Assembly (NCBI GenBank): GCA_024697945.1
Contig: JAILRU010000135.1
Span: 1-64,000, forward strand
Direction of reading: 5' to 3'
DNA from: Bacteroidaceae bacterium
GTDB lineage: Bacteria > Bacteroidota > Bacteroidia > Bacteroidales > Bacteroidaceae
DNA: 64,000 nucleotides
Shown here: piece after piece, positions 8,600 through 54,717 of the stretch
Position numbering within the stretch: position 1 is the first letter of the stretch
How the letters are laid out: each line of letters begins with the position of its first letter
Notes under the pieces: model-generated
Database searches by the model: none
The model's input: only the letters and a program-made list of their open reading frames with translations
Told to the model about the DNA's origin: nothing
Position numbers and translations under genes: made by a program

Positions 8600-8736
8600 T
8601 ATTGAATCCAATGGAAATACGCATAGGCGGCAATCTCCAACCCAATCGTTATGATTGACAGGATAGAAAGGGAGCCGACGATGTAGAACAGGCTTTGTGA
8701 CAGCCAGCCCCCCTGACGAACAAACGACCAGTCGCG
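8600..8736 (-). pseudogene. Orphan C-terminal fragment of a membrane protein
   Basis: Stop-to-stop frame RDWSFVRQGGWLSQSLFYIVGSLSILSIITIGLEIAAYAYFHWIQ* with no ATG; TGA at 8737-8739 immediately upstream. Confidence 0.45.
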
Positions 8737-8742
8737 TCATTT

Positions 8743-9016
8743 TTGCGGAAAGGTAGCTCCGCAATTGTGCAATAGCCTTTGCGCAAAATTCCAAAGGCTT
8801 TTGTCAGAATCAGCATTGGGAGGCAACTATTTCTACTGTGCGTAGAAAAACTTTTTCCTCCGAAGAGAAAAAAATATTCCCACGAAGGGAAAAAAACGTA
8901 GGGACGTAATGGCAAAAACGGCGCTTTGCTCGTTGCAAAGATAGTGTTTGCAGCGTGTAAACACTATTCTTGCAGGCTGCAAAAGCCGTTTTTGCAATCA
9001 CTTTCCAAAAGGATTG
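8743..9016. repeat. 11-nt-period intergenic array, alternating partly complementary units (22-nt hairpins)
   Basis: From 8830: tttctactgtg|cgtagaaaaac|tttttcctccg|aagagaaaaaa|atattcccacg|aagggaaaaaa|acgtagggacg|... 17 contiguous 11-nt units to 9016; 22-nt dyad TTGCGGA-N8-TCCGCAA at 8743-8764. Confidence 0.85.
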
Positions 9017-9062
9017 TGACATTAAATAGTCGCTCCACCTACATAAAAATTTTTCATGATTT

Positions 9063-9123
9063 TAATGTCACAATGTCATACCTATTGACATACAGCAGTT
9101 TGCGGCGTGACATTGTGACATTA
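9063..9123. repeat. Perfect 16-bp inverted repeat, 29-nt loop
   Basis: TAATGTCACAATGTCA (9063-9078) / TGACATTGTGACATTA (9108-9123); related ATTGTGACATTA at 9014-9025. Confidence 0.9.
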
Positions 9124-9166
9124 GAGTGCCAATTTTAACACCAATTTAACGATATTTCACATCTTT

Positions 9167-9406
9167 TTACATAAAAATCGCCCCAAAATCATAGGTTTTC
9201 TCCCCTCCCACAACCGATGTGCTGCTGAAGCCCGAGAAGGCCTCCTTGGCATCGAGGACGCCTGTGACAAACAGAATGCCAATGGCACAGAGAAACACCC
9301 AGTCGGAGCGCAACTTGGTGAACAGCAGGACACTGAACATGCCCAGCACTGTAACGATAGTTATCCAGGCATCAATTCCGAAGCCTAAGAACATAAATGA
9401 TTCCAT
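9167..9406 (-). pseudogene. Truncated N-terminus of SLC13-family transporter (duplicate of downstream-numbered gene)
   Basis: LGFGIDAWITIVTVLGMFSVLLFTKLRSDWVFLCAIGILFVTGVLDAKEAFSGF aligns with the N-terminus of the 9763-11556 product, then ends after about 80 aa. Confidence 0.75.
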
Positions 9407-9737: not shown

Positions 9738-9765
9738 ATTGTCAATTGTCAATTATCAATTATCA
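9738..9765. repeat. Heptanucleotide array ATTGTCA/ATTATCA x4
   Basis: attgtca attgtca attatca attatca; the last unit contains the SLC13 stop codon. Confidence 0.85.
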
Positions 9766-11556
9766 TAGAGGGTAAATAATGTTTACGATGACGAGGGTGA
9801 TGGCCAGCAGGACGATGTGCATGCAGGTGCCGAGGCGGACGAAATCGGTGAACCGGAACGAGCCTGGGCCGAAGATGAGCATGTGGGTGCTGCTGCCTAT
9901 GGGCGAGGCAAAGCTGAACGTGACGGAGAGCATGAGCGACATGACGAAGGGCATGGGATTGCAGCCCAACAGCTCAGCCTGCTGATACATGATAGGGAAG
10001 AAGATTGCACTGGCTCCCACATCGCTGACAAACTCGCTGACGAACGAAGCCAGTAGACACATCACCGCCATGATGATATAGGGATTGTCGCCACAAAGCT
10101 GCATCACGTGAAGCGCGACATTGTCTGCAATGCCGGTCTTGGTGATGGCGGTGGAGAAGACCACCGTGCAACCCAAGACGAGCAGCAGTTCCCATTCGAT
10201 ATACTTAGTGACTCCCGTGATGCGGCAGCAGCCCAGAATCATCATCGTGCCGGCAGCCAGCATGGTGGTGGCCATGAGAGGCAGGACGTGGAACGACGAG
10301 ATGATGAACATGAGCACGATGATGATAGCCGAGGTGACAGTCTTCGGTCCCAGCTGCGGCACGAAGTGGCTGTCGAAGAAGGTGAGGCTGCGGCGGTTGT
10401 CTTGCTCCAGCTGCTCCTCGCCCTTGGGCGGGCACTCCAGGAGGAGCGTGTCGCCAGCCTGCAACTGTATCTCGCGCGGCTGTCCCTTGACGCGGCTTCC
10501 CTGACGGGCCACAGCGACGAGTGCCACGTTGTTCTTCTGCTCGAAGTCGCACTCCGTCATGGAGCGTCCGATGAGGTCGCTGCCGAAGGTGACATATGCT
10601 GTACGCATTCTGCGCTTGGTGTCGATGTCGTTGATGCTCCATACATGATGGTCGGCAGCTGCCAGGCCGTGCGTACGTTTCAGTTCCAGTATCTCGTTGA
10701 TTTGTCCGGCGTAGATGAGGCGGTCGCCGCCAAGAATCCACTCGTCCTTGGGCACGGGCATGATAATCTCGCGGTCGAAGCGTACAATCTCGACCAGCGA
10801 ACCGCCCTTGACGTTCAGCAGTCCTGCCTCCTCGACACTCTCACCCACGGCGGGATTGTCTGTCGGCACCAACAATTCCACAGTATAGTCGCTGGTGGTC
10901 TCGAACGATTGTTCGGCGGACTCGCGCGGCGGAATGAAGCGTTGCAGCAGCATGACCATTGTCACGCCGACAATGGTGAGAATCACTCCAGGCACCAAAG
11001 GCTCGAATACATTGAGCGACTGACCGGTCTGATTCAGATAGAGACCTGCGATGACGAGGTTCGACGAGTTGCCCAGCAACGTGCACATACCGCCCAGGGT
11101 GGCTGCGTAGCTCAAGGGTAGCAGAAGCTTGGAGGGTGCAATGTTGAGTTTTCGCGACCATATCTTCACGGCATCAATGAACAGAATCACCACATTTACG
11201 GAATTCAGCAAGGCAGCCATTATGCTGGTCGGCACCATCAGGCGCAACAAGGCATTGTTGTAGTTCTTGGGGTCGCCAAGCACGTTCTTGGAGAGCCAGT
11301 AGAGCACGCCGGTATGCAGGAGTCCGGCTATGATGATGGCGAAGGCTGCATGAATCACAACGGGTTCGCTACCGAAGCCCGCCATGCCTTCCTCCTCGGT
11401 GACGACACCCGTAACCAGCAATATGGTAAGTGCACCCAGGAATGCCACTTCAGCAGGGATGCGCGAGCGCGACATCACAATGAAGATGCCGATGAGTGTC
11501 AGTATGGTTATCCAGGCACTGATGCTGAAGCCGAGAATAATCTGGTCGAAAAACAT
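9763..11556 (-). CDS. SLC13-family (DASS/CitT-like) permease with RCK_C/TrkA_C domains
   Basis: 597 aa, TM blocks flanking two RCK_C-like segments (GGSLVEIVRFDREIIMPVPKDEWILGGDRLIYAG; NNVALVAVARQGSRVKGQPREIQLQAGDTLLLE). Confidence 0.88.
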   Translation of the reverse strand: MFFDQIILGFSISAWITILTLIGIFIVMSRSRIPAEVAFLGALTILLVTGVVTEEEGMAGFGSEPVVIHAAFAIIIAGLLHTGVLYWLSKNVLGDPKNYNNALLRLMVPTSIMAALLNSVNVVILFIDAVKIWSRKLNIAPSKLLLPLSYAATLGGMCTLLGNSSNLVIAGLYLNQTGQSLNVFEPLVPGVILTIVGVTMVMLLQRFIPPRESAEQSFETTSDYTVELLVPTDNPAVGESVEEAGLLNVKGGSLVEIVRFDREIIMPVPKDEWILGGDRLIYAGQINEILELKRTHGLAAADHHVWSINDIDTKRRMRTAYVTFGSDLIGRSMTECDFEQKNNVALVAVARQGSRVKGQPREIQLQAGDTLLLECPPKGEEQLEQDNRRSLTFFDSHFVPQLGPKTVTSAIIIVLMFIISSFHVLPLMATTMLAAGTMMILGCCRITGVTKYIEWELLLVLGCTVVFSTAITKTGIADNVALHVMQLCGDNPYIIMAVMCLLASFVSEFVSDVGASAIFFPIMYQQAELLGCNPMPFVMSLMLSVTFSFASPIGSSTHMLIFGPGSFRFTDFVRLGTCMHIVLLAITLVIVNIIYPL

Positions 11557-15896: not shown

Positions 15897-15905
15897 CGAT
15901 ATATA

Positions 15906-15933
15906 ATTCAAAATTCAAAATTCAAAATTCAAA
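15906..15933. repeat. Heptanucleotide array ATTCAAA x4
   Basis: Four perfect 7-nt copies in the divergent intergenic region. Confidence 0.95.
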
Positions 15934-15957
15934 AATATAAGAATAGAAAATAATTAT

Positions 15958-15985
15958 GGACTATGGACTATGAACTATGAACTAA
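15958..15985. repeat. Heptanucleotide array GGACTAT x2, GAACTAT, GAACTAA
   Basis: ggactat ggactat gaactat gaactaa. Confidence 0.9.
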
Positions 15986-18267: not shown

Positions 18268-18285
18268 AAAGTTTCAATAATCCTT

Positions 18286-18406
18286 GCTCTAAGGCTTCTC
18301 TAAGGCTTCTCTAAGGCTTCTCAGAGCATGCTCAGAGGATCGTCATAGGACCGTCATAGGATGCTCATACTCCAGAGGTATGAGAGCGGTATGGGCGCTA
18401 TGGGGT
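18286..18406. repeat. 11-nt-period intergenic array
   Basis: gctctaaggct|tctctaaggct|tctctaaggct|tctcagagcat|gctcagaggat|cgtcataggac|cgtcataggat|gctcatactcc|agaggtatgag|agcggtatggg|cgctatggggt. Confidence 0.9.
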
Positions 18407-18477
18407 CTGTAACTCCTACTTCCATAAACAGCGACCTTTCCCTTTGCCCGTAGCGTGCTGTCCTTCCGGACGGAGCG

Positions 18478-18569
18478 ATAGTAATCCTATTGCTGAAAGA
18501 ATACTAATCCTATGCAGGAAGGAATAGTAATCCTTCAGTGGAAGGAATAGTAATCCTTCGAAGGTAGGG
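18478..18569. repeat. 23-nt tandem repeat x4 with internal dyad
   Basis: atagtaatcctattgctgaaaga|atactaatcctatgcaggaagga|atagtaatccttcagtggaagga|atagtaatccttcgaaggtaggg. Confidence 0.9.
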
Positions 18570-18630
18570 ATAGGACGCTAATGACAAAGCGACCTTTACT
18601 ATTCATTGACGTTAAGGTTTCTGGGTGGGT

Positions 18631-21375
18631 TTATTTCAGTATCTTCTTCCCGTTGAAGATGTAAACACCCTTAGATAATTTTGAATTTTGAATTTTGAAT
18701 TTTGTATTATCAAAGCGGCGGCCAGCGATATCAAAGATGGCACCCTCATTTTCCATTTTTAACTGTTCACTTTTGATTTCATCAATTCCGTCCTCAATGT
18801 CTTTCTCGGTTACGGTGAACTGGGGGCCTTCGGTGAAGACGGAGCCCACGTAGGCGGCGTCGATGGTCTGAACGCCCCATTTGTAGGTGCCGGGCTTCGC
18901 GGGAAGGAACGTCCACTCCGTCAGGCAACCAACACGTCCGAGGCGGTTCACCTTGCGGAGTCCGTCCTTCGTGCCGCCTATGATGGACGGCGTGCTGTTC
19001 ACAAGGTTGCCCTCTTCGTCCTTGATGTAAATCTCGTAGGTGTAGCCCGGGTGGGCTGTCTCTGGTGCCTGCCAGGAGAGGCGTGTCCTGCCGTCTTGCT
19101 TCGTGACAGTAGGAGCGAGCGGGGCATCGGGTCGCGAGGGGATGGGGTAGAGGTTGCTGCAAAGGATGGCATTGCGGCCTTCCTGCTCTGTGGTCAGGTA
19201 GTTCTTGTCCTTCGAAAAGCCATTGAGCAGGAAGTCTTTGCGTCCGTCGCCGTTATAGTCGGGGAAGATGATGCAGGCTCCTGTGGCTCCGGGGATGCTG
19301 ACGCTTCGTTTGAGGTGGCCCTTGCCGTCGTTGAGGTAGAGCATGCCGCTATAGGCATTCGACTTCGTGCCGCCAAGCATGATGTCGTAGTAGCCGTCCC
19401 AATTCCAGTCGATGACGCCTGCAGAGTTGCTTGCCGAAGAAGAGAGCGTGTAGAGGTCTGTCTGGAACTCGCAGGCGATGGGGCTGAACGAAGGCACGGC
19501 GGTCTGCTGGTTGAGGTAGATGCGCTGGCGTGTGGTCGATTCGCCGGAAGATATCTCGCCCTGTCCGGCCAGCATGATGTCGAGCCAGCCGTCATCGTTG
19601 AAGTCTGCCACCTGCAGTGCTCCGTTCGACTTGCGTTTGATTTCGCCATCTTTCTCGCCAAGTCCCAGACGGGTGAACTGATGCCCGTAGTTATTGGGGC
19701 TGTTGAGATAGACGTCGGTGAAGCGCAGCTGGTCTTCCTTCCCATCCACGAGGGCAGAGATGGCAAAGTCCTGAAAGCCGTCGTTGTTGAAGTCGGCGGG
19801 CTGTATGATGGCCTCACGGAGGAGGAAGCCGGGCTCGTAGGGCTCTACGGAGAAACGTAGAGTACTGACGTTGTCGGTGGTCTGGTTGTGGAGGATGACG
19901 TTGTAGTTCATCTCGCTCTGATGCCCCACGAGGATGATGTCGAGCCGTCCGTCGTTGTCAATGTCAATAACCTCTGCGTTGCATGGAGCCCTCCAATCAA
20001 AAGAATTGATAATTGATAATTGATGATTGATAATTAACTCCACGCTTGCTTCTTCGAACGTTCCGTTTCCTTTGCCCAGGAAGATGCCTTCGTGTCCATA
20101 GTTGCCGGCATAGGCTTCTTCGGTAACGTCATAGCCTGTCTGCTCGAAGGCGATGATGTCCATGTTCCCGTCGTTGTTGATGTCGCAGGGAACGAGGGAG
20201 GGAGAGTCTGCCACCTGGAAGGGTGGGGCGGTTGTGACTTTCACCCATCTATGGTTAGTAGAGTTAAAGGTTGCAAGGTAGGACATGCGCTTGCTCGTGA
20301 AATCGTCTGTGGCGGAGTTCTGAACAGTATTGCCGGAGCCACCGGTCACGATGTCCTGGCTTCCGTCGTTGTTCATATCTACGGTGACCGCTCCGCCGCG
20401 CTCAAAACCCCATTTCTTCGTGATGAGCTCGGGGCTGTAGGGAGCTGAGGTGGAGAGCGTTGGCCGGATGATGGGGTCGCCCAGCATCACGAGACTGCTC
20501 CCTCGTATCTGCATGGTGCCAATGTACATCAGGCGGTCGTGAACCGCCTCGGTGCTGTTATGGGCATGGAAAACGATGCGCAGCAGGCCCTCCTTGTCGT
20601 AGAAGAGCGAGTGGTGGCCTGTGCCTACGAGGTCGTCCCAGCGGCGAAGGATGGGATTGTTGTTATACTTCGTCCAATTTCCCGAAGCGATGTTCGTCGC
20701 ATAGGCATAGCCCACGGCATAGTCCTGACTGCGGTAGTCGTTGCCCGAGTAGGTGAGGAAGTAGCGATGGCCATTCTTAATGACATTGGGCCCTTCGTTG
20801 ACTTTGCCCATCTTGAGCTCCCAGGACTGGGATGCAGCGAAGCACATACGCAGGGTGCTCCCGATGGGCGTGATGAAGTCGTCGCTGAGCTTTGCCTGCC
20901 AGATGCAGTTACCGTCGGTGAAGCGGACAAAGAAGATGTAGGCAGTGCTGTCCTCGTCGATGAAGACGTGCGAGTCGATGCACTTCTCGCTTCCGATGAT
21001 GCTCTCCATCTGGTAGGAGCCTACTTGCTTGAAAGGTCCTTTCGGGGAGTTGGATGTGGCGGCAAAGAGGTGCTCGTTGGCGGAGTAGTACATGATGTAC
21101 TTGCCCTTGATGCGATAGACCTCGGGTGCCCAGAACCACTGGGTCTCGGTGGTGTTCTCCTTGTTCAGAGCCTGCCCCTCGTCCTTCCAAGTCCGCAGGT
21201 CGTCGCTCGAGTAGCAATGGATGCCACTGGCATCGTGGGTGCCGTAGGCATAGTAGGTGTCCCCGTCGAGCAGGATATACGGGTCGGCCAGGGGAATCTG
21301 ACTCTTCCCGCCCTCAGCTTTCACGAAGAGCGGGATGAGTAAAAGAATCCCCACTAAAAAGGATTGTCTGTTCAT
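18631..21375 (-). CDS. GH43-like glycosidase with VCBS/FG-GAP repeats and C-terminal sorting-like tail
   Basis: IPLADPYILLDGDTYYAYGT...WFWAPEVYRIKGKYIMYYSA; multiple DFNNDG/DINNDG motifs; tail FDIAGRRFDNTKFKIQNSKLSKGVYIFNGKKILK. Confidence 0.88.
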   Translation of the reverse strand: MNRQSFLVGILLLIPLFVKAEGGKSQIPLADPYILLDGDTYYAYGTHDASGIHCYSSDDLRTWKDEGQALNKENTTETQWFWAPEVYRIKGKYIMYYSANEHLFAATSNSPKGPFKQVGSYQMESIIGSEKCIDSHVFIDEDSTAYIFFVRFTDGNCIWQAKLSDDFITPIGSTLRMCFAASQSWELKMGKVNEGPNVIKNGHRYFLTYSGNDYRSQDYAVGYAYATNIASGNWTKYNNNPILRRWDDLVGTGHHSLFYDKEGLLRIVFHAHNSTEAVHDRLMYIGTMQIRGSSLVMLGDPIIRPTLSTSAPYSPELITKKWGFERGGAVTVDMNNDGSQDIVTGGSGNTVQNSATDDFTSKRMSYLATFNSTNHRWVKVTTAPPFQVADSPSLVPCDINNDGNMDIIAFEQTGYDVTEEAYAGNYGHEGIFLGKGNGTFEEASVELIINHQLSIINSFDWRAPCNAEVIDIDNDGRLDIILVGHQSEMNYNVILHNQTTDNVSTLRFSVEPYEPGFLLREAIIQPADFNNDGFQDFAISALVDGKEDQLRFTDVYLNSPNNYGHQFTRLGLGEKDGEIKRKSNGALQVADFNDDGWLDIMLAGQGEISSGESTTRQRIYLNQQTAVPSFSPIACEFQTDLYTLSSSASNSAGVIDWNWDGYYDIMLGGTKSNAYSGMLYLNDGKGHLKRSVSIPGATGACIIFPDYNGDGRKDFLLNGFSKDKNYLTTEQEGRNAILCSNLYPIPSRPDAPLAPTVTKQDGRTRLSWQAPETAHPGYTYEIYIKDEEGNLVNSTPSIIGGTKDGLRKVNRLGRVGCLTEWTFLPAKPGTYKWGVQTIDAAYVGSVFTEGPQFTVTEKDIEDGIDEIKSEQLKMENEGAIFDIAGRRFDNTKFKIQNSKLSKGVYIFNGKKILK
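18679..18705. repeat. Heptanucleotide array TTTTGAA (ATTCAAA family), coding
   Basis: Three perfect copies plus one partial, encoding the KFKIQNSK part of the GH43 tail. Confidence 0.9.
20005..20039. repeat. Heptanucleotide array ATTGATA x5 (degenerate) inside CDS
   Basis: attgata attgata attgatg attgata attaact; encodes ELIINHQLSIINS within the VCBS region. Confidence 0.9.
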
Positions 21376-22867: not shown

Positions 22868-25800
22868 TTATTTCAGTATCTTCTTGCCGCTTTGGATATA
22901 TATACCCTTTGGTAATTTACTATTTGACGATTTACAATTTACGATTTTCCGGCCGGTAAGGTCATAAACGGCATCATCATTTTGAATTTTGAATTTTGAA
23001 TTTTGAATTATTTCTATGCCTGTGCCGTTCTTCAGGATTTCTTCTGCGCGGTCGATAGCCTCACGCAGGGCTTGGCGGTCCTCGCTTGTGACGGAGTTCG
23101 CCGAGATGTGGGAGCGGAAGCTCTGGAGCTCTGTCTGCAGGGCATCGAAGGCTTCCTTGACCTCTGGCCTCTGGTAATAGGGTGAAGCTGCTTCGTCGAT
23201 GATGGCATTGTGCACTTGGAACTCACTCATGGCGAAGATGCGGCTGTCGGCACGCTTACCGAGGGTCTGCATGACCTGGAAACGCAGGAAGCGCGATGCT
23301 CCGTCGGTGAAGAGAACCGGCGAGGTGTAGCTTTCGCTGATGTTGGTGGGCAGGCCTTCCGTTATCCGAGCCACAGGCAGCAGGTTGCGCATGGTGGCTG
23401 AAGCCGAAACGATGATGTCCGAAGGAATGTCGGGCTGTCCGTATTCGGGGTTCTGCGAGGGGGTGAAGCTGAAGGCAAAGGCCTGGATGTCACCGCTGGT
23501 GCGAGCCTGGATGTAGGACATCTCGTCTGGCCATGTAATGCCGCTGTACCACGTCTCGTAGTAGGTGTTCGTCTTGCCGTCAATGAGCTTGGCGAGACTG
23601 TGCTCTTCCTGTTGATTGGTATTGGCGTTGGACGAGAGGTACGAGCTGGTGCGGATGAGTTTCGATTCTGTGTCTGCGTAGGCAACGAATGCTTTCCCAT
23701 AGGTCTGAATACCCTGCAGGAAGAGGTAGTCGGGCGTGTTCTCATGGACAGCCTGCTCGCCCTCTGCGGTTATTCCGTGTACGGCATCCTCAGAGGGCCT
23801 CAGATACTGGTTGGTGCGCAGCTGGAAGATGGCTCCACTGCCTCCTGAGTTCTGAAGTACAACGGGCTTCTCGCCACTTGGGGTGATGCCCACATACTTG
23901 CCGCCCGCATTGATGGTGAAGCCATCGCCGCTCTTGCTGAGGGTGATGGTCGTAGGAATGTCGGAGAGTGTGAGTTCGGAGCCATCTACGGAGAGATACT
24001 TACCTGTTCCCAGGTTGTAGAGGTAACTTTCGTTGTATTTCTCGGAGCGTAGAATCATCCAGTTGCAATAGGGGTCACTCACGCGGCACTTCTGGCGGTA
24101 GGCTTCGGGAGCCGTCGTGGAATTGGAGGCAGCAATGGAAAGCACTCCGTCAGTGGTGGCGATGAGGTCGCCGCGACCGGAAGCATTGTGGAGCTGATAG
24201 ACAGCCATAGGTGTGAAGCTCTCGGCCTTGGCAACCACTCCGTATGTGAGCGGCTGTGCCGTAGCGCCAATCTCTCGGATGGTTTCGCGGAGAGCATCGA
24301 TATCTGTGCAGGTGCCGTCGGCATAGACTGTGCGCAGAGGCTCAAGGTCGGCTGGTGCGTAGCCACCCCAGGCATCGGACTCCTCGAATATCTGTCGAGC
24401 GAGGTCAAGCAGGCTTCCGAGACGGTATTCGTGCTTGAAATAGAGCTCGTTGATGACAAGGTTGGACCCGTAGCCGGATGTGAAGCGCAGACGGAAGAAC
24501 TTGGCTGTGACAGGTTCCGGCAGGGTGACGGTGGGACTTTCGGTGTCTTCGATGGTGAGGCGCGAGGAAACAGTCGTCCAGCGACTCCCGTCTTCGGACA
24601 TGTAGAATGCCATCTGTTTGGCGCGGTATTTGCTTTCGCGGTTCTGATAGATTTCCAACGAGCTGACAGTGACGGGTTCGGGGGCCTCGAAGGTGAAGGT
24701 GTGGGGATAGCCTGCGGCATTGCTCTTCCAACGGTTGTGGTAGTATGAGCTTCGGTCGCCGTCAAGCATCATGGCAGCACGTCCGTAGTCGCCCTCTCCA
24801 ACGGTCTCCTCGTCGCTGAAACTGATGAGCTTCCATGTGGCCGGGTCGGAAACGGTGCGAGTGGTTTCGATGCGCTGCTTCATGGTCTTGGAATTGTAGT
24901 GGAGGACACCTTCATCCACGCGGCGCTCCAAACGAGCAATATTAATGGTATCTACCCAAGGCATCTCGCCCATCAGGGGAGGCTCGCAGGTGTTCGCGCT
25001 GTCGCGTTTGCCCATGTAGCCGCCTGTCTCCAGATAGAAGGTCTTGTCGTATAGCTGCGTAACACCGTGACCGAAGTCATAGCGGGAGTTGCGCGTGCCC
25101 TTGTTCTGGGTGTTGCCAAAGCCTGCATAATTCAAGGCGTACCATTGTCCGGTAGCTGCTGAGCGCATGGCTCCGTTGCGGAAGTAACAGCGGCGCATAA
25201 GCTCGCCGCCTGTATCGCCAAAGTTCTCAAGGAAGCTGTAGATGCCGCTCGTGAGGCGGTTGGCAGCTGCCATACGCAGAGTGCCCATGTAGTGCCAGTC
25301 GTTTTCCTCGGCCATCTTGTACCACACGGTCTGCAAAGTGCTCTCGAACTCCGAGACGCTGCCGTCCTCGTTGGTGACGCTGACAATGTCCGGACGTACG
25401 TTGTAGAGGAACTGTACCCAGTGGTCGAACTCCCATAGGTCGTCGCGGTTGTATCGGATGCTGGAACCCGTGCCCTCTCCGCCGAAGCGCGTGGCATAGG
25501 CATCCGGACCGAGATCAACGGCTCCGGCGCGCATGATGTCGGGCAGGCTCTTGTCCTTGTCCGTGTCGCCGTTGTCCCATACGGAGAAGAGGACCGTATG
25601 ACCGTAACTGCCGTCGCTGCGTGTGGGCATCTGTATGCCGGAGTACATGCCGTCGGTGCCGATAGCCATCTGGTAGGAGGCCGGTTGACGGTATGCACTG
25701 GGATACATTACCTCGAGGTAGGTCCAGTTGTAGCTTTGTCCCGACGGCGCTCCTGGAACCTTTGTGCTCCACCACAGATGTACGCTGGGAGCCATGAAGA

Positions 25801-26305: not shown

Positions 26306-26346
26306 GGTTGTTATAGGTAAAATTCAAGGCAAAGGTACGAAAAATA

Positions 26347-26374
26347 ATTCATAATTCATAATACATAATTCAAA
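26347..26374. repeat. Heptanucleotide array ATTCATA x2, ATACATA, ATTCAAA
   Basis: Intergenic, between the 26305 start and a terminator. Confidence 0.85.
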
Positions 26375-26381
26375 AAAAATA

Positions 26382-26413
26382 GGAAGACAGCTCCTTTGAG
26401 GGAACTGCCTTCC
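26382..26413 (-). terminator. Intrinsic terminator for the 26455-28470 gene
   Basis: GGAAGGCAGTTCC-ctcaaa-GGAGCTGTCTTCC stem on minus strand followed within 2 nt by T8. Confidence 0.85.
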
Positions 26414-26454
26414 TGATTAGTCATAAGTTGCACACGCAACCTTTCCTTATTATC

Positions 26455-28470
26455 TTATTTTACCAACACTTTCTTGCCGTTAACGATGTTGATGCCCTTC
26501 TGCATCTTCTGGAGGCGCTGACCAGCCATGTTGTAAATGGCTGATGTCTCATTTTGAATTTTGAATTTTGAATTTTGAATTGACTCAATGCCTGTTGCGT
26601 CATCATTACCAAACTTGAAGCAGAAGCCCTTAATCTCAGTCCCTTCGGGAACCTCGAGATAAGCCTTGCCAGCGGCGATGGTGCCACTCTCGGCCTTGTA
26701 GAAGCCTACTTCCTCGCCTTCGGGCTTAGCAAGAATGTACTTGCCGGCAGCATCGATGGGTTCGAGAGTACCCTTCAGGTCATTATCCTCAACAGCAGGA
26801 GCCCATTGCTTGACGAGGGCTTTATCACCGTCCACAGTTGTATCCTGGAAGATGTCCAGGTAATCACCATCAGGATCATTCTTGCCGTCAACTTCGAATG
26901 CGTAGGTGCCGGGAGTTCCCTTCAGGATGACAGCGGTGAGTGCAGGAATGGTTCCTTCAACCTCTGAGAGGGTCAGCCATTCGCCGTTAATCTTACCAGT
27001 GTAAGCCGTTACAGTTCCCGATGAACCGACAGTGCCAAGCATTGCAACTTGAGCGGTATTCAGAGCCTGGTTCCAGAAGCGAATCTCAGATGTTAACACT
27101 TCATTGTCTTCTCCGTCTTCATCTTCGAAGAGGTAGAAAGCATTACCAATGCCCCATTTCGAAAGCTGTGCAGAACTCTTGCCAACCAGATTGCCGTCAA
27201 CATAGACTTCTCCATACAACTCGTTAACTACAAATACAATGCGATACCATGTGTCATCTACCAGTGAGCCGTGGTAGTACAAGCCGGCGGAATTGATACC
27301 AATCTGTCCGTTGTGAACGAACAGGCCAGCGTCATTGGCGTTATCAAGATCGGTCTGGATAATAGCATTGTAGCTGACCACGTCAGGGAATTTGACATCC
27401 ATCATTAACGTGTAGCTATTGAGGGATTCCTCAGGGAGGTTTGTAGTCATCTTAAGACGGTCATCCTTGGGAATCGTGATGGAGCCGTCTTCATTAGCAA
27501 CGACACCAGAAGTGGCAGTCAGGGTGGCAGTGCCTGTCCCATTAATTGTACCGCCCTCGAATGTCCAAGCACCTGTTGTTTCAGGTACTATAACAGGTTC
27601 GGGAGCTTCTCCTGCAGCTTCTCCTTCTATTGTGCCAAGTGCTGCAACTTGCTTAGCATCGAAGGGAACATCCCAGAAACGGAGACCAGTCACCTTGATA
27701 TCCTTCTCCTCGCCGTCTTCGTCAGCGAAGAAGACTGCACCTGGGCCTTGCAGCAGCCAGTGCTTGTTGTAGGAGTCGGTGTGCTCGCAAGCGCTTAACA
27801 GCTCGCCGTCAACATAGAGGGCTGCCTTGTTGGGAGTGTCGATTACCAATACAACACGATACCACACGCCGGCACTGAAGTTGCCATTGTAGCCGAGAGA
27901 GCCGCCAAGACCCATCTGACCGTTCTTGATGAAGAGGCTGCCGTCCTTGCTGTCGGTCATACTGTTCTGCCAAAGTGGAGTGTAGCCGGTCATGTCGTCT
28001 GAGCAGATGTCGAACATCACGGTGTACTTGTCGAAGCCTTCTGCGCCATTATTGGTGTTCATGAGCAGGCTTGAGCCTTTGGGAATGTACAGGGCACCGC
28101 CTTCGAGTGTTGTGATGCCGGCTGCTTCAAGGCTTTCCTTTGTCTCAAGCCAGCCCTTGCCTTCGTTAGGGTCACCGTTCGTGCCGTGAATGGCAGGAGT
28201 GAGAGTTGCTGTGCCTGTACCTGCCAATGGATTATCGGGATCGTCGAATGTCCAGGCACCAACGGGTGTTGGAAGATCATCCGCACCAACAGGAACTAAA
28301 CCGGCAAATGTGATGGAGTAGGGCATGTAGGCCGTTGCATAACCGCTCTCGCCAATCGTCACGGTTGTAGTTGTTTTTTCATCTTCTGCCCATGCGGTGA
28401 AGGCAGCACACATCAGAGCTACGCACATAACGCCACGCAGCCTGAATAGGTTTAGTAGTCTTTGTTTCAT
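26455..28470 (-). CDS. Secreted protein with two LamG/concanavalin-like domains and sorting-like tail
   Basis: Two repeats of GAWTFDD.../GAWTFEGGTINGTGTATL...WYRIVFVVNELYGEVYVDGNLVG; tail IYNMAGQRLQKMQKGINIVNGKKVLVK. Confidence 0.8.
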   Translation of the reverse strand: MKQRLLNLFRLRGVMCVALMCAAFTAWAEDEKTTTTVTIGESGYATAYMPYSITFAGLVPVGADDLPTPVGAWTFDDPDNPLAGTGTATLTPAIHGTNGDPNEGKGWLETKESLEAAGITTLEGGALYIPKGSSLLMNTNNGAEGFDKYTVMFDICSDDMTGYTPLWQNSMTDSKDGSLFIKNGQMGLGGSLGYNGNFSAGVWYRVVLVIDTPNKAALYVDGELLSACEHTDSYNKHWLLQGPGAVFFADEDGEEKDIKVTGLRFWDVPFDAKQVAALGTIEGEAAGEAPEPVIVPETTGAWTFEGGTINGTGTATLTATSGVVANEDGSITIPKDDRLKMTTNLPEESLNSYTLMMDVKFPDVVSYNAIIQTDLDNANDAGLFVHNGQIGINSAGLYYHGSLVDDTWYRIVFVVNELYGEVYVDGNLVGKSSAQLSKWGIGNAFYLFEDEDGEDNEVLTSEIRFWNQALNTAQVAMLGTVGSSGTVTAYTGKINGEWLTLSEVEGTIPALTAVILKGTPGTYAFEVDGKNDPDGDYLDIFQDTTVDGDKALVKQWAPAVEDNDLKGTLEPIDAAGKYILAKPEGEEVGFYKAESGTIAAGKAYLEVPEGTEIKGFCFKFGNDDATGIESIQNSKFKIQNETSAIYNMAGQRLQKMQKGINIVNGKKVLVK
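26552..26579. repeat. Heptanucleotide array TTTTGAA x4, coding
   Basis: Four perfect copies at the tail junction of the LamG protein. Confidence 0.95.
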
Positions 28471-37017: not shown

Positions 37018-37100
37018 CATCAAGATATCGATTTGTCTTTGCGGAGTTGTTTGTAAAGATTCGATGGTATCAATCCCTCAATATTTTCCAAGAAAATCCC

Positions 37101-37364
37101 AGACCAAGTCTATACCAAGTCTATACCATCTCTATACCAAGTCTATACCAACTCTATAGCCCCTCCACTCCCTCTCTGGTTCCTCTCATGTTGCCCTCAT
37201 GTCGCTCTCATGTTGCCCTCATGTCGCTCTCATGTTCCCCTCTAATCGCTGTCTAATTCTATATATTAGAGGAAATATAGAGAAAGAGTGGAGGGAACTC
37301 GGAGAAAACATGGAGGGGACATGGAGAAAAGATGGAGGAAACATGGGGTGAACGTTGATTAAAA
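37101..37364. repeat. 24-unit 11-nt-period array with pyrimidine-rich left and purine-rich right half (imperfect giant inverted repeat)
   Basis: agaccaagtct|ataccaagtct|ataccatctct|ataccaagtct|ataccaactct|...|tgttgccctca|tgtcgctctca|tgttgccctca|tgtcgctctca|...|atggaggggac|atggagaaaag|atggaggaaac|atggggtgaac. Confidence 0.93.
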
Positions 37365-48800: not shown

Positions 48801-50351
48801 ATCGATGCCAGCCGCTATAGTCCCATCTCATGGAAATGGGAGCTCAATAACGGCTGTCGTGCTTTGACCATTGACGAACAGTCGCCCCTCATCGTTCCCA
48901 CCGCTCCTGGTGTCTATGACATCAGCCTCCGTGTGACGAATCCCTTGGGCGAAAATACACTGACCCGTAACCGCTACCTTATCGTCAGCAACGACGACCC
49001 CATTTCCTGCCTCAACTTCACTGGTGTGGAAACCCTGCAGCTTCCCTGTCCCTTTACTGAGGAGCAGAAGTCACTCACCCTCGACTGGTGGATGCGTCCT
49101 CAGCAGTATCAGGGCAGCGTCAGCCTCACTTCTTCGCAGGGCGACTTCTCCACTTCTGTGGATAGCAAGGGCGTGCTTCTCTTGACATTGGGGAACAGGA
49201 AGGCCCAGTCGTCCGAAGGTTACATCATTACGGGCGAATGGCACCACTATGCCGTAGTCTATAATGCTGGCGCAGTCAAGTTCTACCGCGACGGTCAGTT
49301 CTTCAATACCTCGACTTCCAGGATTGCTTCACGTATGCCTGCCTTGGAGACCATCACTATGGGCGAGGGTGGCTTCAACGGACAGATTGACGAGGTCCGT
49401 CTATGGGGCGAAGCACTTACCGAGGAAAAGATAAATGCCTACTGCAACCAGCATATAGCTGACGTTCAGGAGGCGCAGGCCACAGACAACCTGCTGCTCT
49501 ACTATGACTTCAATCAGAATGGCGGCGATGTGCAGGACCGCACCTCAAATGCCTGCATTGCAAAGCGCATAGGCTTCGGTCCCGACGGCGATGCATGGAA
49601 CTCGGCCTTGGGAGTCTTTACCATCGACACCGGTGCCCTCATGCATGGAGACATCTCCGACTTGTACCTGACAAACTATAAGAACCCCTATCTCACGGCA
49701 TCGGGAACCGTCAATCCCAATAACAGCAGTCGCTTCCTGAAACTGTTGATGCGTAATACCCGTTCCAGGTGGCAGGATGCCAATGCCATCGTCTCCGGCA
49801 ACATTACGACAGGAGCACACATAGACACGTCGCACCACAACGACATCCAGTTCGAGACGCAATGGAGCGGCTTTGCCACACCTTTGCTCGACTATCGTCT
49901 CTGGCAGGCAATCACGTTGCCGGCCGGCAGGTATCGCTTCAGTATCGTCCCTGGCGACGTTGACGACATGCAGACCAGCCGCCTTGTGGCTTGCGAGGGC
50001 AGTACCATGGTCAGCGATGCAGCATGCGAGGAGAAAGCCCTTGCCTGGTGCAAGCTAATGGATGGCAGCATCAACTTCACGCTCGAAGAGGAGAAGGAAG
50101 TCTCCCTTGGCATCATCGTTAACCTGACCGGTCAGTCCAGCTTCGGCATCCATGCCTTCAAGTTGGAGGGTGTCACCATCGAACCCCTCACGCCGACAGG
50201 CATTGAATCAATTCAAAATTCAAAAGTGAAAATTCAAAATGACGATGCCGTCTATGACCTTGCTGGCCGGAAAATAGTAAATCGTCAATCGTCAAATAGT
50301 AAATTACCTAAGGGTGTTTACATCATTAACGGCAAAAAGATACTCAAATGA
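45810..50351 (+). CDS. Papain-like (C1A-like) cysteine protease with LamG and PKD-like domains and sorting-like tail
   Basis: FNQDGGSCGSAAAIGYQF...FNHALTVCGYDD...IIANSWGDGWENKGF; two LamG blocks; start 45810. Confidence 0.85.
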   Translation: MKKSLLLIVGLLPALSGMAQIEDYTLPDGKVVKIDRSVFPDLKYDVTPKAKPADYVARRKARKAPVQLPPYVYNGQDKYFPPIFNQDGGSCGSAAAIGYQFTHEINSYRDADASLTENQYPSHFTWLLAYQTSTTEGMAKAIGIPNVPTYGGRTYSRLFGPQTHDDPDYGWMQGYDKWFSAMWNKSAYDFSLAPTNTPEGRQELKEWLYNHSGDETMHGGGVAGIGVAAYGTWAAIPNSAANKAAGVVGMKYVKAWGETFNHALTVCGYDDRIEFDLDGDGIIGEVEEDEVGAWIIANSWGDGWENKGFIYCPYKYSFSVNNDTWTWTPGAFVIRQDYRPLRTIKLTMDYSHRSELLLSAGISENLNATKPDKTIPFEHFRYAGNTLGADPAPEVPMLGRWTDGMHYEPMEFGYDLTDLTAAFDRTKPLKYFFIVKTKSGAIGSGHIYNASIINYEIENDGVEIPFEQTDVEIRNKGRETIISVVVPGEQLYAPTNLNLEDGVLVWSAPQTSSLTLTGYHVYEGTSLVAQLPVSQTYYTPSDEASGAFTVKAVYQTGQYSLESDASNAVVLQIPQQGANHIVNLNESGITIPNAISEMLGKATIEFWMRNDKNVSYTHQVGPGWGKFLFHNNSNGTLSVGWDSSGSDRLNVSDVFSTLKKWNHIAIVINGSTLTLYVNGVKKGQITSKTYSGLVAFGDLPFGRTSDVNQWWIGGLDEIRVWRTARTQTEIRNNMRVRIASPALQPDLMVYVPMETIEVDGETRLREYVSGKHAKFQLIGTWQVDESDEPLTGSQPTPALTISEEGTTHLAGIPFRLTAQTLLNVTDWEWKAERIQTTDDGQQTVVDGQWPVLYGMSPTFLFSEAGTYNIICTATYVDGTTLTAEKEIVVADGEAPVAAFDVVNAELPAGDRFSFINRTEGAGCTYQWSMPGAEVEQLGGTNATALYPTTGTFPVTLTAINPYGSSSVTKEVTVRESAPRALFEISETAIMLGESIQLIDASRYSPISWKWELNNGCRALTIDEQSPLIVPTAPGVYDISLRVTNPLGENTLTRNRYLIVSNDDPISCLNFTGVETLQLPCPFTEEQKSLTLDWWMRPQQYQGSVSLTSSQGDFSTSVDSKGVLLLTLGNRKAQSSEGYIITGEWHHYAVVYNAGAVKFYRDGQFFNTSTSRIASRMPALETITMGEGGFNGQIDEVRLWGEALTEEKINAYCNQHIADVQEAQATDNLLLYYDFNQNGGDVQDRTSNACIAKRIGFGPDGDAWNSALGVFTIDTGALMHGDISDLYLTNYKNPYLTASGTVNPNNSSRFLKLLMRNTRSRWQDANAIVSGNITTGAHIDTSHHNDIQFETQWSGFATPLLDYRLWQAITLPAGRYRFSIVPGDVDDMQTSRLVACEGSTMVSDAACEEKALAWCKLMDGSINFTLEEEKEVSLGIIVNLTGQSSFGIHAFKLEGVTIEPLTPTGIESIQNSKVKIQNDDAVYDLAGRKIVNRQSSNSKLPKGVYIINGKKILK
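48311..48357. repeat. Heptanucleotide array inside protease CDS
   Basis: acagacc acagacg acggaca acagacg gtggtcg atggtca atggcc; encodes QTTDDGQQTVVDGQW. Confidence 0.85.
50211..50304. repeat. Two heptanucleotide arrays flanking the GRK tail core, coding
   Basis: attcaaa attcaaa agtgaaa attcaaa (50211-50238); gtaaatc gtcaatc gtcaaat agtaaat (50277-50304). Confidence 0.9.
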
Positions 50352-53215
50352 AACGTCTCCTCCTCATTCTCTATTCTTCATTCTTCATTCTTCATTCTTC
50401 ATTCAGTCCTGCAAGGGCGCAGAACCCTGACAGCCTTACCTTCGCTGTGCTGGGCAACTCCATCTCGACCTACTATGACTATATCCCTTCCGGCTACGCC
50501 ATCTACTATACAGCGGACCGCGAGAAGACCTATGGCATACAGGTAGGCGACACATGGTGGATGCAGCTCAGCCGTCTCTCGGGACTCACTTTCCTTGCCA
50601 ATGCCTCGTGGAGCGGCAGTCGCGTGTCGTGCGATTTGCTCAACAGCAAAGCCCCATTCCTCAGCAATGAGCGCGTGAAAGCCTTGGGACGAGCCGGCAA
50701 GCCCGACTTCATCTTCATCGCAGGCGGTACCAACGACTGGAACCAATCCAAAGTGCCTTTGGGCGAGTACCGTACGAAGAACTTCACCGACTCCGTCACC
50801 TTTCGGGGAGCATATCAGCGGCTCCTCTTCAAACTCACGACGTGGTATCCGCAGGCTCGCGTAGTCTGTCTGGGCATCTTCCCTCGGGGGAACGGTGTCA
50901 ATGACAAGAATTCACAGGGATGGTCGCAGGCCGATGCCAATGCCAGCATCAAGTACATTGCAGAGCAGTTTGGCCAGTACTATATAGACTGTACCAACGT
51001 CCCCTGGAGCAACGACTGGGCGGCATATACCCTCGACAGGCTTCATCCCTCGGCAGCTGGTGCCACACTGCTTGCCCAACACATCACCAATGCCATGTTA
51101 TCCCAGGGAATCATCACGCGCGACCTGAAGCGTTCCAACGAAGTGGAGGAGGCAGAACGCCTGTTGGACATCAGCTTCACCGCCGATGGCATTGTCAATC
51201 AGGGCACCTATGCCGCCAAGGTCGGTAAGCACGGCACAGCCACAACCTTCTACGATGCCGCTCGCGACACCTACTACGGTTGCTCCAAGGCACGCGCCTC
51301 AGACTACTACTATGCCACCTACGACGAGGGCTCACCCTTGGTCAAAGCCTTCAACAGCAGCGTGACGTGGGAGATGCTCGTGCGCCTTGACGCCCTTGCC
51401 GACCAGAACGGCAACATCAGCCGGACCTGCATCCTTGGTAACGAGGAGAACGGCGGCTGGGCTTTCTACAACTCCGAACTGGCAAGCAGCTTCTGCTACC
51501 AGAACAAGAGCGGCGTGAAGAGCAGCATGAAGAGCATCACCGGCGACTCCATCCTCCTTTCCGGCAAGTTCTACCACCTGGTTGCGACGATGGACCGTAT
51601 GAGCCACATCATGCGCTACTTCATCAACGGCAAGCTCGTCTGCACCAGCACCCGTGCTGGCTCAGACATGACGATGCCCCAGTGCGGCACCACCAAGGGA
51701 CGCAAGGGCATGTGGATATGCCTTGGCGGAGATGCCACGTCCGGCTCGGTCAACAACGGAGCCGAGGGATCTTCCGCATGCAGCTTCGTCTTCGCCCGCA
51801 TCTACGACGGCGCCCTTTCCCAAAAGGCGGCCACGGCACTCTATAACGACGACGTCAAGCGGTTCACCGAGCCGCAGACACCCTACGGAACTGAACTCCT
51901 CATGGATTGCGAGTTCACCCCCGACGGAGCCGTCAACCATGCACCCTCCTTCGGGGACAGACCTATAGTCATGATGGACACCGTACAGATGCGCTACAAT
52001 GCCGACATTAACCACTATGAAGCACAGTTCAACGATATCAGGTCGGAGTTCTTCAAGTACCAGCTGGGCGACGACCCCGCAATCATGAGCCAGCTCACCG
52101 ATGCCTACAGCGTCGAGGTCTTCTGCCGCAGCAGCGAAGCCCTGCCCACCACCAGCATCCGTCCACTCAGCTTCGTCAACGGCTATGGCTTTGGTCTGCA
52201 GATGAACAACAGGGGCAACATCGGCTACACCACCACCACGCAGGGCAACAAGGCCGACGGCACCTTTGCCAAGACCCAGTGGTCGTGGATAGGAGCGGGA
52301 AACCTCACTGCCGACTATACCCACTATGTCATCGTCTATGACCGCAAGAACTACCGTTCGCAGTTCTACGTGAACGGCGAGCTGGCCGATACGCGCTGGC
52401 TGACCTTCAAGGAGTGTCCCGTTTACGAATGGGCACCAACCACGTGGCTGTCCATAGGTGGCGATGCCGTGGGAACTTACGAGCAGACATCCTCCGTGGG
52501 CAGCTATTCCTTCATGGGCGATGTGGCATTGGTACGCGTCTATGGCAATGCGCTGAGCAAAAACCAGGTCCAGAGCCTCGCAGGCATCCTGAGCACACAG
52601 GAGATGACATACACCCTGGGGACCAACGGCTATGCCGCCGTCTGCCTGCCCTACATCTGGCAAGTGCCCGAGGACTGTACAGCCTATATCATTACAGAGA
52701 TAGCCTCACCGTCTGCCATGCTGACAGCCATCGCCGCTACAGGAGATTATGTCCCCTACGGCACACCCGTCTTGTTGAGCGGCCCCGCAAAAGCTCAGGT
52801 CACCCTGACAGCCCAGAACAAGGATGAAGTAAGTGAAATGGTAAATGATAGTTGGTCAAATGGTAGTTGGCAAAATCTCTTGGTAGGAACCTATCCAGGC
52901 AAGACGCTTGATGCTGGCGAGGGTTATTATATGAGGACTACGGGCACGAGCATCTATCGGGCCACAACCCCTGTCGCCTTGCCTCCGTTCAGTTGCTACC
53001 TGCCTTCAGCTGAAAAGCGGTCACTATTCAAGCTCGAAGAAGCAGAGACAGGCATTGAATCAATTCAAAATTCAAAATTGAAAATTCAAAATGACGATGC
53101 CGTCTATGACCTCACCGGCCGGAAAATAGTAAATAGTAAATCGTCAAATAGTAAATTACCAAAGGGGCTCTACATCCAGAACGGAAAGAAGATATTTGTA
53201 AGAAGCAACGACTGA
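50348..53215 (+). CDS. SGNH/GDSL-like hydrolase with LamG domains and sorting-like tail
   Basis: LTFAVLGNSISTYYDYIP...IFIAGGTNDWNQ...LDRLHPSAAG; LamG blocks; ATGA overlap with preceding gene. Confidence 0.85.
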   Translation: MKRLLLILYSSFFILHSSFSPARAQNPDSLTFAVLGNSISTYYDYIPSGYAIYYTADREKTYGIQVGDTWWMQLSRLSGLTFLANASWSGSRVSCDLLNSKAPFLSNERVKALGRAGKPDFIFIAGGTNDWNQSKVPLGEYRTKNFTDSVTFRGAYQRLLFKLTTWYPQARVVCLGIFPRGNGVNDKNSQGWSQADANASIKYIAEQFGQYYIDCTNVPWSNDWAAYTLDRLHPSAAGATLLAQHITNAMLSQGIITRDLKRSNEVEEAERLLDISFTADGIVNQGTYAAKVGKHGTATTFYDAARDTYYGCSKARASDYYYATYDEGSPLVKAFNSSVTWEMLVRLDALADQNGNISRTCILGNEENGGWAFYNSELASSFCYQNKSGVKSSMKSITGDSILLSGKFYHLVATMDRMSHIMRYFINGKLVCTSTRAGSDMTMPQCGTTKGRKGMWICLGGDATSGSVNNGAEGSSACSFVFARIYDGALSQKAATALYNDDVKRFTEPQTPYGTELLMDCEFTPDGAVNHAPSFGDRPIVMMDTVQMRYNADINHYEAQFNDIRSEFFKYQLGDDPAIMSQLTDAYSVEVFCRSSEALPTTSIRPLSFVNGYGFGLQMNNRGNIGYTTTTQGNKADGTFAKTQWSWIGAGNLTADYTHYVIVYDRKNYRSQFYVNGELADTRWLTFKECPVYEWAPTTWLSIGGDAVGTYEQTSSVGSYSFMGDVALVRVYGNALSKNQVQSLAGILSTQEMTYTLGTNGYAAVCLPYIWQVPEDCTAYIITEIASPSAMLTAIAATGDYVPYGTPVLLSGPAKAQVTLTAQNKDEVSEMVNDSWSNGSWQNLLVGTYPGKTLDAGEGYYMRTTGTSIYRATTPVALPPFSCYLPSAEKRSLFKLEEAETGIESIQNSKLKIQNDDAVYDLTGRKIVNSKSSNSKLPKGLYIQNGKKIFVRSND
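50373..50407. repeat. Heptanucleotide array ATTCTTC x4 in signal-peptide coding region
   Basis: Four perfect copies plus attcagt, encoding YSSFFILHSSFS. Confidence 0.95.
53063..53155. repeat. Two heptanucleotide arrays flanking the GRK tail core, coding
   Basis: attcaaa attcaaa attgaaa attcaaa (53063-53090); agtaaat agtaaat cgtcaaa tagtaaa (53128-53155). Confidence 0.9.
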
Positions 53216-54517: not shown

Positions 54518-54638
54518 TACCGATGTCATACCAAATGACGGTCTGATTACTACCAGCATATGGTACGACCAATACCACCTACTGGTACTGCCAGTACCAA
54601 ATTCTGGTACGGATAGTACCACCTGCTGGTACTTTAGA
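54518..54638. repeat. 11-nt-period array with alternating TACC / GGTAC units
   Basis: taccgatgtca|taccaaatgac|ggtctgattac|taccagcatat|ggtacgaccaa|taccacctact|ggtactgccag|taccaaattct|ggtacggatag|taccacctgct|ggtactttaga. Confidence 0.93.
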
Positions 54639-54717
54639 TATTGAGAGTATGGCAGCACACATCACGATGTGGTTTCTCCCGATTTTAATTGTTTTAAATT
54701 CATTTAACATATTAATG

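Follow-up and report, generated by a model that had tools for sequence, protein, structure and literature searches.

Organization of the repeat locus

The window, i.e. the whole stretch of 64,000 nt that was analysed, is contig C114 of a 3.68-Mb assembly consisting of 138 contigs (86.6% complete). The region from 8709 to 9193 is a mosaic of dispersed modules arranged in the order E-B-C-D and lies between two gene stumps, as follows.

8602–8712, minus strand: membrane-protein stump, a 37-aa C-terminal piece cut where module E starts
8709–8805, plus strand: module E, approximately three 22-nt dyads (8743–8764, TTGCGGA..TCCGCAA; 8765–8786; 8787–8803)
8813–8911, plus strand: module B, 22-nt hairpins TTTCTAC..GTAGAAA (8830), TTTTTC..GAAAAA (8852) and TTCCC..GGGAA (8876)
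8912–8998, plus strand: module C, 22-nt hairpins obtained by folding, CTTTGC..GCAAAG (8924–8940), ATAGTGTTTGC..AAACACTAT (8941–8967) and TTGCA..TGCAA (8970–8982)
8912–8922 and 8985–8995: outer inverted repeat of module C, GCAAAAACGGC and GCCGTTTTTGC, enclosing the C hairpins
9058–9126, plus strand: module D, with a 16-nt perfect inverted repeat, TAATGTCACAATGTCA and TGACATTGTGACATTA (9063–9078 and 9108–9123)
9127–9193, plus strand: tail of D, TTTAACACNAATTTAACG...AAAATCGCCC, common to several copies (compared with L011, L015 and L016)
9170–9406, minus strand: stump of a CitMHS-type transporter paralog, an N-terminal piece whose end reads into the D tail

The membrane-protein stump had no Pfam match; in five genomes of the same genus, longer ORFs have C-termini that are 75–81% identical to it. 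The transporter stump shares 45% identity with the N-terminus of the product of 9763–11556 and 86–94% identity with intact ORFs of 599–606 aa in two relatives. The two stumps abut the repeat on both sides, as if recombination there had joined two broken loci. A first-pass annotation of the window had described an array of small hairpins at 8743–9016; this end was placed too early, since module D and its tail (to approximately 9193) also belong to the feature.

Dyad structure of the focal array

The dyads named in that annotation (TTTCTAC, CTTTGC, TTGCGGA and others) were found at the positions given. It had named a hairpin density equal to that of shuffled DNA as the observation that would speak against an array; the segment 8743–9016 contains 11 hairpins (arm of at least 6 and loop of 3–10), compared with 1.27 in dinucleotide shuffles (p ≤ 0.007), and 8 hairpins are found in 8830–9016, where 0.81 are expected from the same type of shuffle (p = 0.003). 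Self-similarity at a lag of 22 nt in 8743–9016 was 0.49 versus 0.25 (z = 8.6), and a direct 11-nt repeat was not detected in this segment (lag 11, z = −0.9). Because lag 22 is enriched and lag 11 is null, the true unit of the focal array is the 22-nt dyad. Thus, only the 22-nt part of the original description as an 11/22-nt array holds, and the reported alternation of 11-mers with their reverse complements reflects genuine dyads but not a separate 11-nt unit, being the automatic outcome of a dyad with a 22-nt period. There is practically no prospect that these structures are chance hairpins in AT-rich intergenic DNA, an explanation which is refuted by the dinucleotide shuffle tests and opposed both by the fold z-scores of the focal strand against shuffles (−7.6 as DNA and −5.9 as RNA) and by the homologous copies elsewhere in the genome.

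Further arrays were identified in the window:

18274–18573: 11-nt direct array followed by the 22/23-nt module A, same class; TCATAGGATCG has copies at L071 and L074
18478–18573: module A, a 22/23-nt array, GGAATAGTAATCC...
37067–37346: direct 11-nt arrays, the second of which is in part the reverse complement of the other (lag 11, z = 14.3)
54521–54649: 22-nt dyad array TACCA-N5/6-TGGTA (lag 22, z = 7.7), with 15 hairpins (arm of at least 5) versus 1.1 expected

Direct arrays with an 11-nt unit, of several sequences unrelated to one another, occur in the window (18287–18369 and 37103–37346) and at L066 (21–151), L071, L074 and L077 (16011). In some cases an array that is partly their reverse complement follows, and such direct arrays are more frequent here than in the rest of the sampled genomes. 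Tandem arrays of 7 nt (AATTCAA, ATTTTGA, TCATTCT and others) are located at 15905–15984, 18677–18708, 20004–20035, 22979–23009, 26344–26581, 50210–50404 and 53062–53163. No other period is as frequent in the window's genome as lag 7, whose multiple 14 shows no dyad symmetry.

Dispersal of the modules

The first-pass annotation did not recognise the array as dispersed. A blastn search of 8700–9140 against its own genome yielded 59 matches falling into separable modules, and the array is therefore a dispersed repeat rather than a structure of one locus. Four copies of module E were found (C40:14044, 91%; C137:32544, 82%; C40:47622, 82%; C72:2383, 75%), together with approximately 25 partial or full copies of module B genome-wide, copies of module C on C40, C91, C118, C37 and C64, and approximately 19 copies of module D. 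The order of the modules differs between loci: E-B-C-D at the focal locus, A-D-B at L009, L022 and L023, B-D at L015 and L016, and C-D at L011 and L035. Three contigs of G000 (C93, C108 and C118) end inside copies of modules B/C, and these repeats probably break the assembly.

No DNA match to the focal repeat was obtained among 24 sampled species of the same genus or among 16 other families. Module D is shared more widely than the other modules, with three copies (72–78%) in G081 and a core that recurs unchanged in the Prevotella MAGs Red_deer_2_mag_11 and RUI080; in the D-bearing MAG loci that were read, it lies near 22-nt hairpin arrays of other sequence, e.g. ATTCCCACCGTGGGAAT-AAAAC. The matches of D to uncultured Prevotella MAGs suggest that the window's genome comes from a Prevotella-like member of the Bacteroidaceae. 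A module located beside D (TGACAGTTTTTTGTACTTTTCCTGATATGGTTGACAACC) appears nearly identical at L026 (approximately 1040–1150) and L124 (approximately 1400–1500), which represent two species whose arrays otherwise differ; this suggests either horizontal transfer or a conserved site. A plasmid or phage origin was considered and rejected: plasmid and phage records gave no match, and two array cores had no exact match in viral contigs. Five 18-mer matches of D to viral contigs were at approximately the level of chance.

Distribution of the 22-nt pitch in the genus and family

Periodic regions were sought in sampled stretches, mostly from MAGs, by testing each lag for windows of 66 nt in which identity reached 60% or more; lag similarity was used instead of a strict detector of perfect-arm dyads, which was too weak genome-wide. 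In the window's own genome, the 464 kb scanned contained 22 lag-22 regions. Ten genomes of the same genus yielded 28 such regions over 729 kb (none in G081 and G004, of which approximately 40 kb each was scanned), and ten further genera of the family, most of which contain them, yielded 10 over 383 kb. A single one was present in the 346 kb sampled from five other families within the order. Approximately seven of the 22 regions in the own genome, i.e. about a third, are direct 11-nt arrays rather than dyads. In most genomes of the family sampled, array density was 2.4–8 per 100 kb. The sequences of the arrays are species-specific (AACCAGTSACTGGTT, AACGTGTTGA, CCTTAGG, GACCTAGGTC, AACAATATTGTT, etc.).

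Arrays selected by 22-nt periodicity alone are palindromic: with shuffled columns as the control, 23 of 49 reached p ≤ 0.02, and the mean z was 2.48. The same dyad test gave mean z values of −0.4 to 0.9 at lags 9, 12, 14, 18, 21, 24, 28, 36 and 42, and lag 23 behaved in the same way as lag 22. Across 67 arrays, mean pairing at the best centre was 0.577, compared with 0.478 ± 0.007 in permuted columns. A fixed 22-nt pitch combined with changing sequence is a trait of the (Bacteroidaceae-like) family. The proposal that structure and spacing are conserved while sequence is not is thus borne out at the family level by the 22-nt pitch, the dyad symmetry and the unrelated sequences, but not by covariation: among the copies of module B, compensatory change did not exceed that in shuffles. 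Among the papers that could be searched, none was found to describe such arrays in Prevotella or Bacteroides.

Spread and turnover in relatives

In G017, approximately 20 places contain copies, 82–100% identical, of one array that differs from the focal one; some copies have a leader and tail, some are bare and some consist of 5–6 units. The leader recurs in G046 beside a different array, and G046 carries another array where G017 has AACCAGTSACTGGTT. G113 has yet another 22-nt array behind an efflux-gene ortholog (92% identical), and no array was recognised at this ortholog in G048 and G086. In a second set of orthologs, only one of 15 flanks has an array. At the few sites examined, orthologous gene ends thus show turnover of arrays and not a preference for the same site. 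When the empty site of the G017 copies was sought in relatives, arrays were replaced or absent, and no clean junction was found. The ends of the element vary between copies, and visual inspection revealed neither a TIR nor a TSD. Because no TIR, TSD or clean empty site was established, we infer transposition rather than observe it; tandem duplication and gene conversion could explain much of the spread.

It is conceivable, although we regard it as rather doubtful, that the arrays are mere by-products of mutation in place, with slippage and hairpin-templated copying duplicating 11- or 22-nt steps and with neither mobility nor function. The occurrence of direct 11-nt arrays of many sequences and the lack of conserved array positions would agree with such a process. 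Local slippage is nevertheless insufficient, because near-identical copies reside at unrelated loci, companion modules are common to several species and the class is limited taxonomically to the family.

Gene context and level of action

Based on a simple ORF caller, 18 of 54 arrays lie in convergent gaps, versus 18% expected by length (p = 0.005), and 20 of the 28 arrays in tandem gaps are nearer to the 3' end of the upstream gene (p = 0.036). This bias fits a 3'-end function and avoidance of promoters alike. Three terminator-like sites are present in the focal gap, compared with 0.6 expected, and the T run is missing from most units.

These biases, together with the strong folding of the focal strand as RNA (z = −5.9) and the excess of terminator-like sites, are what would be anticipated if the arrays acted in RNA as bidirectional terminators or 3' stabilisers of mRNA, with selection keeping the structure. 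Action in RNA is nonetheless unlikely in view of several other observations. An excess of G-U pairs on the transcribed strand is absent (16 G-T versus 31 A-C in 10 arrays). Complementarity is above chance even at the adjacent central bases (0.43), where a loop in RNA would not require pairing, and palindromes often have no loop, pairing running through the centre. Within arrays, the apparent covariation between units reached a ratio of 2.28, practically the same as in controls with permuted columns (2.21); inter-unit covariation had looked strong at first (126 versus 60 expected) and vanished against such controls. Moreover, arrays appear and vanish at orthologous sites, and RNA has no need of a rigid 22-nt pitch. 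Known structured RNAs were also considered and rejected, Rfam 15 having given only matches below the gathering score, mostly to miRNA models. Recognition of dsDNA or a cruciform is weakly favoured over RNA structure, because there is no G-U excess, the central bases are complementary and covariation does not exceed that in controls.

Relationship to known repeat systems

BrickBuilt, a MITE/minisatellite of Porphyromonas gingivalis, consists of 23-nt tandem units with predicted stem-loops, occurs in approximately 20 intergenic copies with an optional leader and tail, is species-specific and accounts for 0.44% of the genome (PMC4596501). The repeats described here resemble it in belonging to the same order, in their intergenic tandem stem-loop units and in their species-specific sequences. 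A leader and tail accompany part of the G017 copies, and module D may play a comparable role in the window's genome. BrickBuilt, however, is known from one species with one sequence, as direct repeats with TIRs like those of ISPg1/ISPg9 (PMC4596501), whereas the present class has palindromic units, many sequence families per genome, a family-wide distribution and no apparent TIR, and its pitch is 22 rather than 23 nt; the comparison of the two covers pitch and published description. The 464/PgRS elements of P. gingivalis are 41-nt tandem repeats (PMC4596501), likewise intergenic and from the same order, and differ from the arrays here in unit length (41 versus 22 nt), the single property by which they were compared. 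The relative G071 contains a hairpin array of approximately 41 nt and about 10 units beside a STAS gene ortholog (L248, approximately 960–1400), which recalls the 41-nt repeats of P. gingivalis.

REP/BIME and REPIN (RAYT) elements share with the present repeat the form of short palindromes dispersed between genes in mosaics with other motifs. If the arrays were classical REP/BIME elements, they would be moved by a RAYT transposase (TnpA_REP, Y1), as in Enterobacteriaceae and Pseudomonas. The window's genome has one Y1_Tnp gene (270 aa), and a Bacteroidetes subclass of RAYTs with atypical hairpins has been described (PMC6006769). This origin is nevertheless improbable. No Y1_Tnp match was obtained in G012, which has 7 arrays in 84 kb, or in G016, which has 6 in 99 kb (the genomes are 86 and 92% complete, respectively), and G003 and G017 have only borderline matches, located inside frames of 433 and 356 aa. 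Conversely, every one of the five outgroups except G039 gave Y1_Tnp matches, yet these four have almost no arrays. Around the window genome's own Y1_Tnp gene, reading by eye showed no 22-nt array over approximately 1 kb of one flank and 0.3 kb of the opposite flank. GTAG or CGTC tags, which in REP elements stand at the foot of the hairpin, recur with a 22-nt period in no more than 2 and 4 arrays, respectively, among the 67, and units touch at a fixed 22-nt pitch, which also distinguishes the arrays from REP/BIME and REPIN elements. As a general mobiliser, RAYT is largely refuted by the two array-rich genomes in which no Y1 gene was detected, both of which are incomplete. By behaviour, the repeat belongs with the REP/BIME and BrickBuilt-type repeats, yet it lacks the REP/RAYT hallmarks that were tested.

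Nature of the repeat

The arrays are dispersed and modularly shuffled, have species-specific sequences at a fixed pitch with dyad symmetry, show no positional conservation at the sites examined and are mildly enriched at 3' ends. We consider it probable (roughly 0.6) that the focal array is one copy of a non-coding, non-autonomous mosaic repeat that is REP/BIME- or BrickBuilt-like and interspersed in intergenic gaps. In such a repeat, palindromes of approximately 15–16 nt would alternate with spacers of approximately 6–7 nt, keeping the pitch constant at 22 nt, and companion modules, for example D, would be linked to them; the class would be spread across the family with its own sequences in each species. 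Its units would spread as non-autonomous elements, through transposition or recombination by a putative enzyme.

Negatively supercoiled DNA in vivo has about 11 bp per turn, and 22 nt would thus equal two turns. The pitch would then reflect double-stranded or cruciform DNA recognised by an oligomeric protein, rather than mRNA structure, with the spacing being read on one face of the supercoiled DNA. More tentatively, and at lower odds than the mosaic repeat itself, the family may possess a sequence-independent system that makes or keeps strings of short palindromes at exactly two helical turns, in which a putative enzyme or DNA-coating protein would read spacing and symmetry and not the letters.

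The position of the focal copy, with a broken gene on either side, makes these repeats a possible source of genome rearrangement, and they are a likely cause of contig breaks in MAGs because several copies end contigs. Should complete genomes follow the same rule, a whole family of dominant gut and rumen bacteria would carry an unnamed repeat class, which would comprise on the order of 50–200 arrays per genome provided that the stretches sampled are representative. One architecture would then be maintained with constantly replaced sequences, and the arrays would allow a direct test of what holds a 22-bp pitch constant while the sequence remains free to change.
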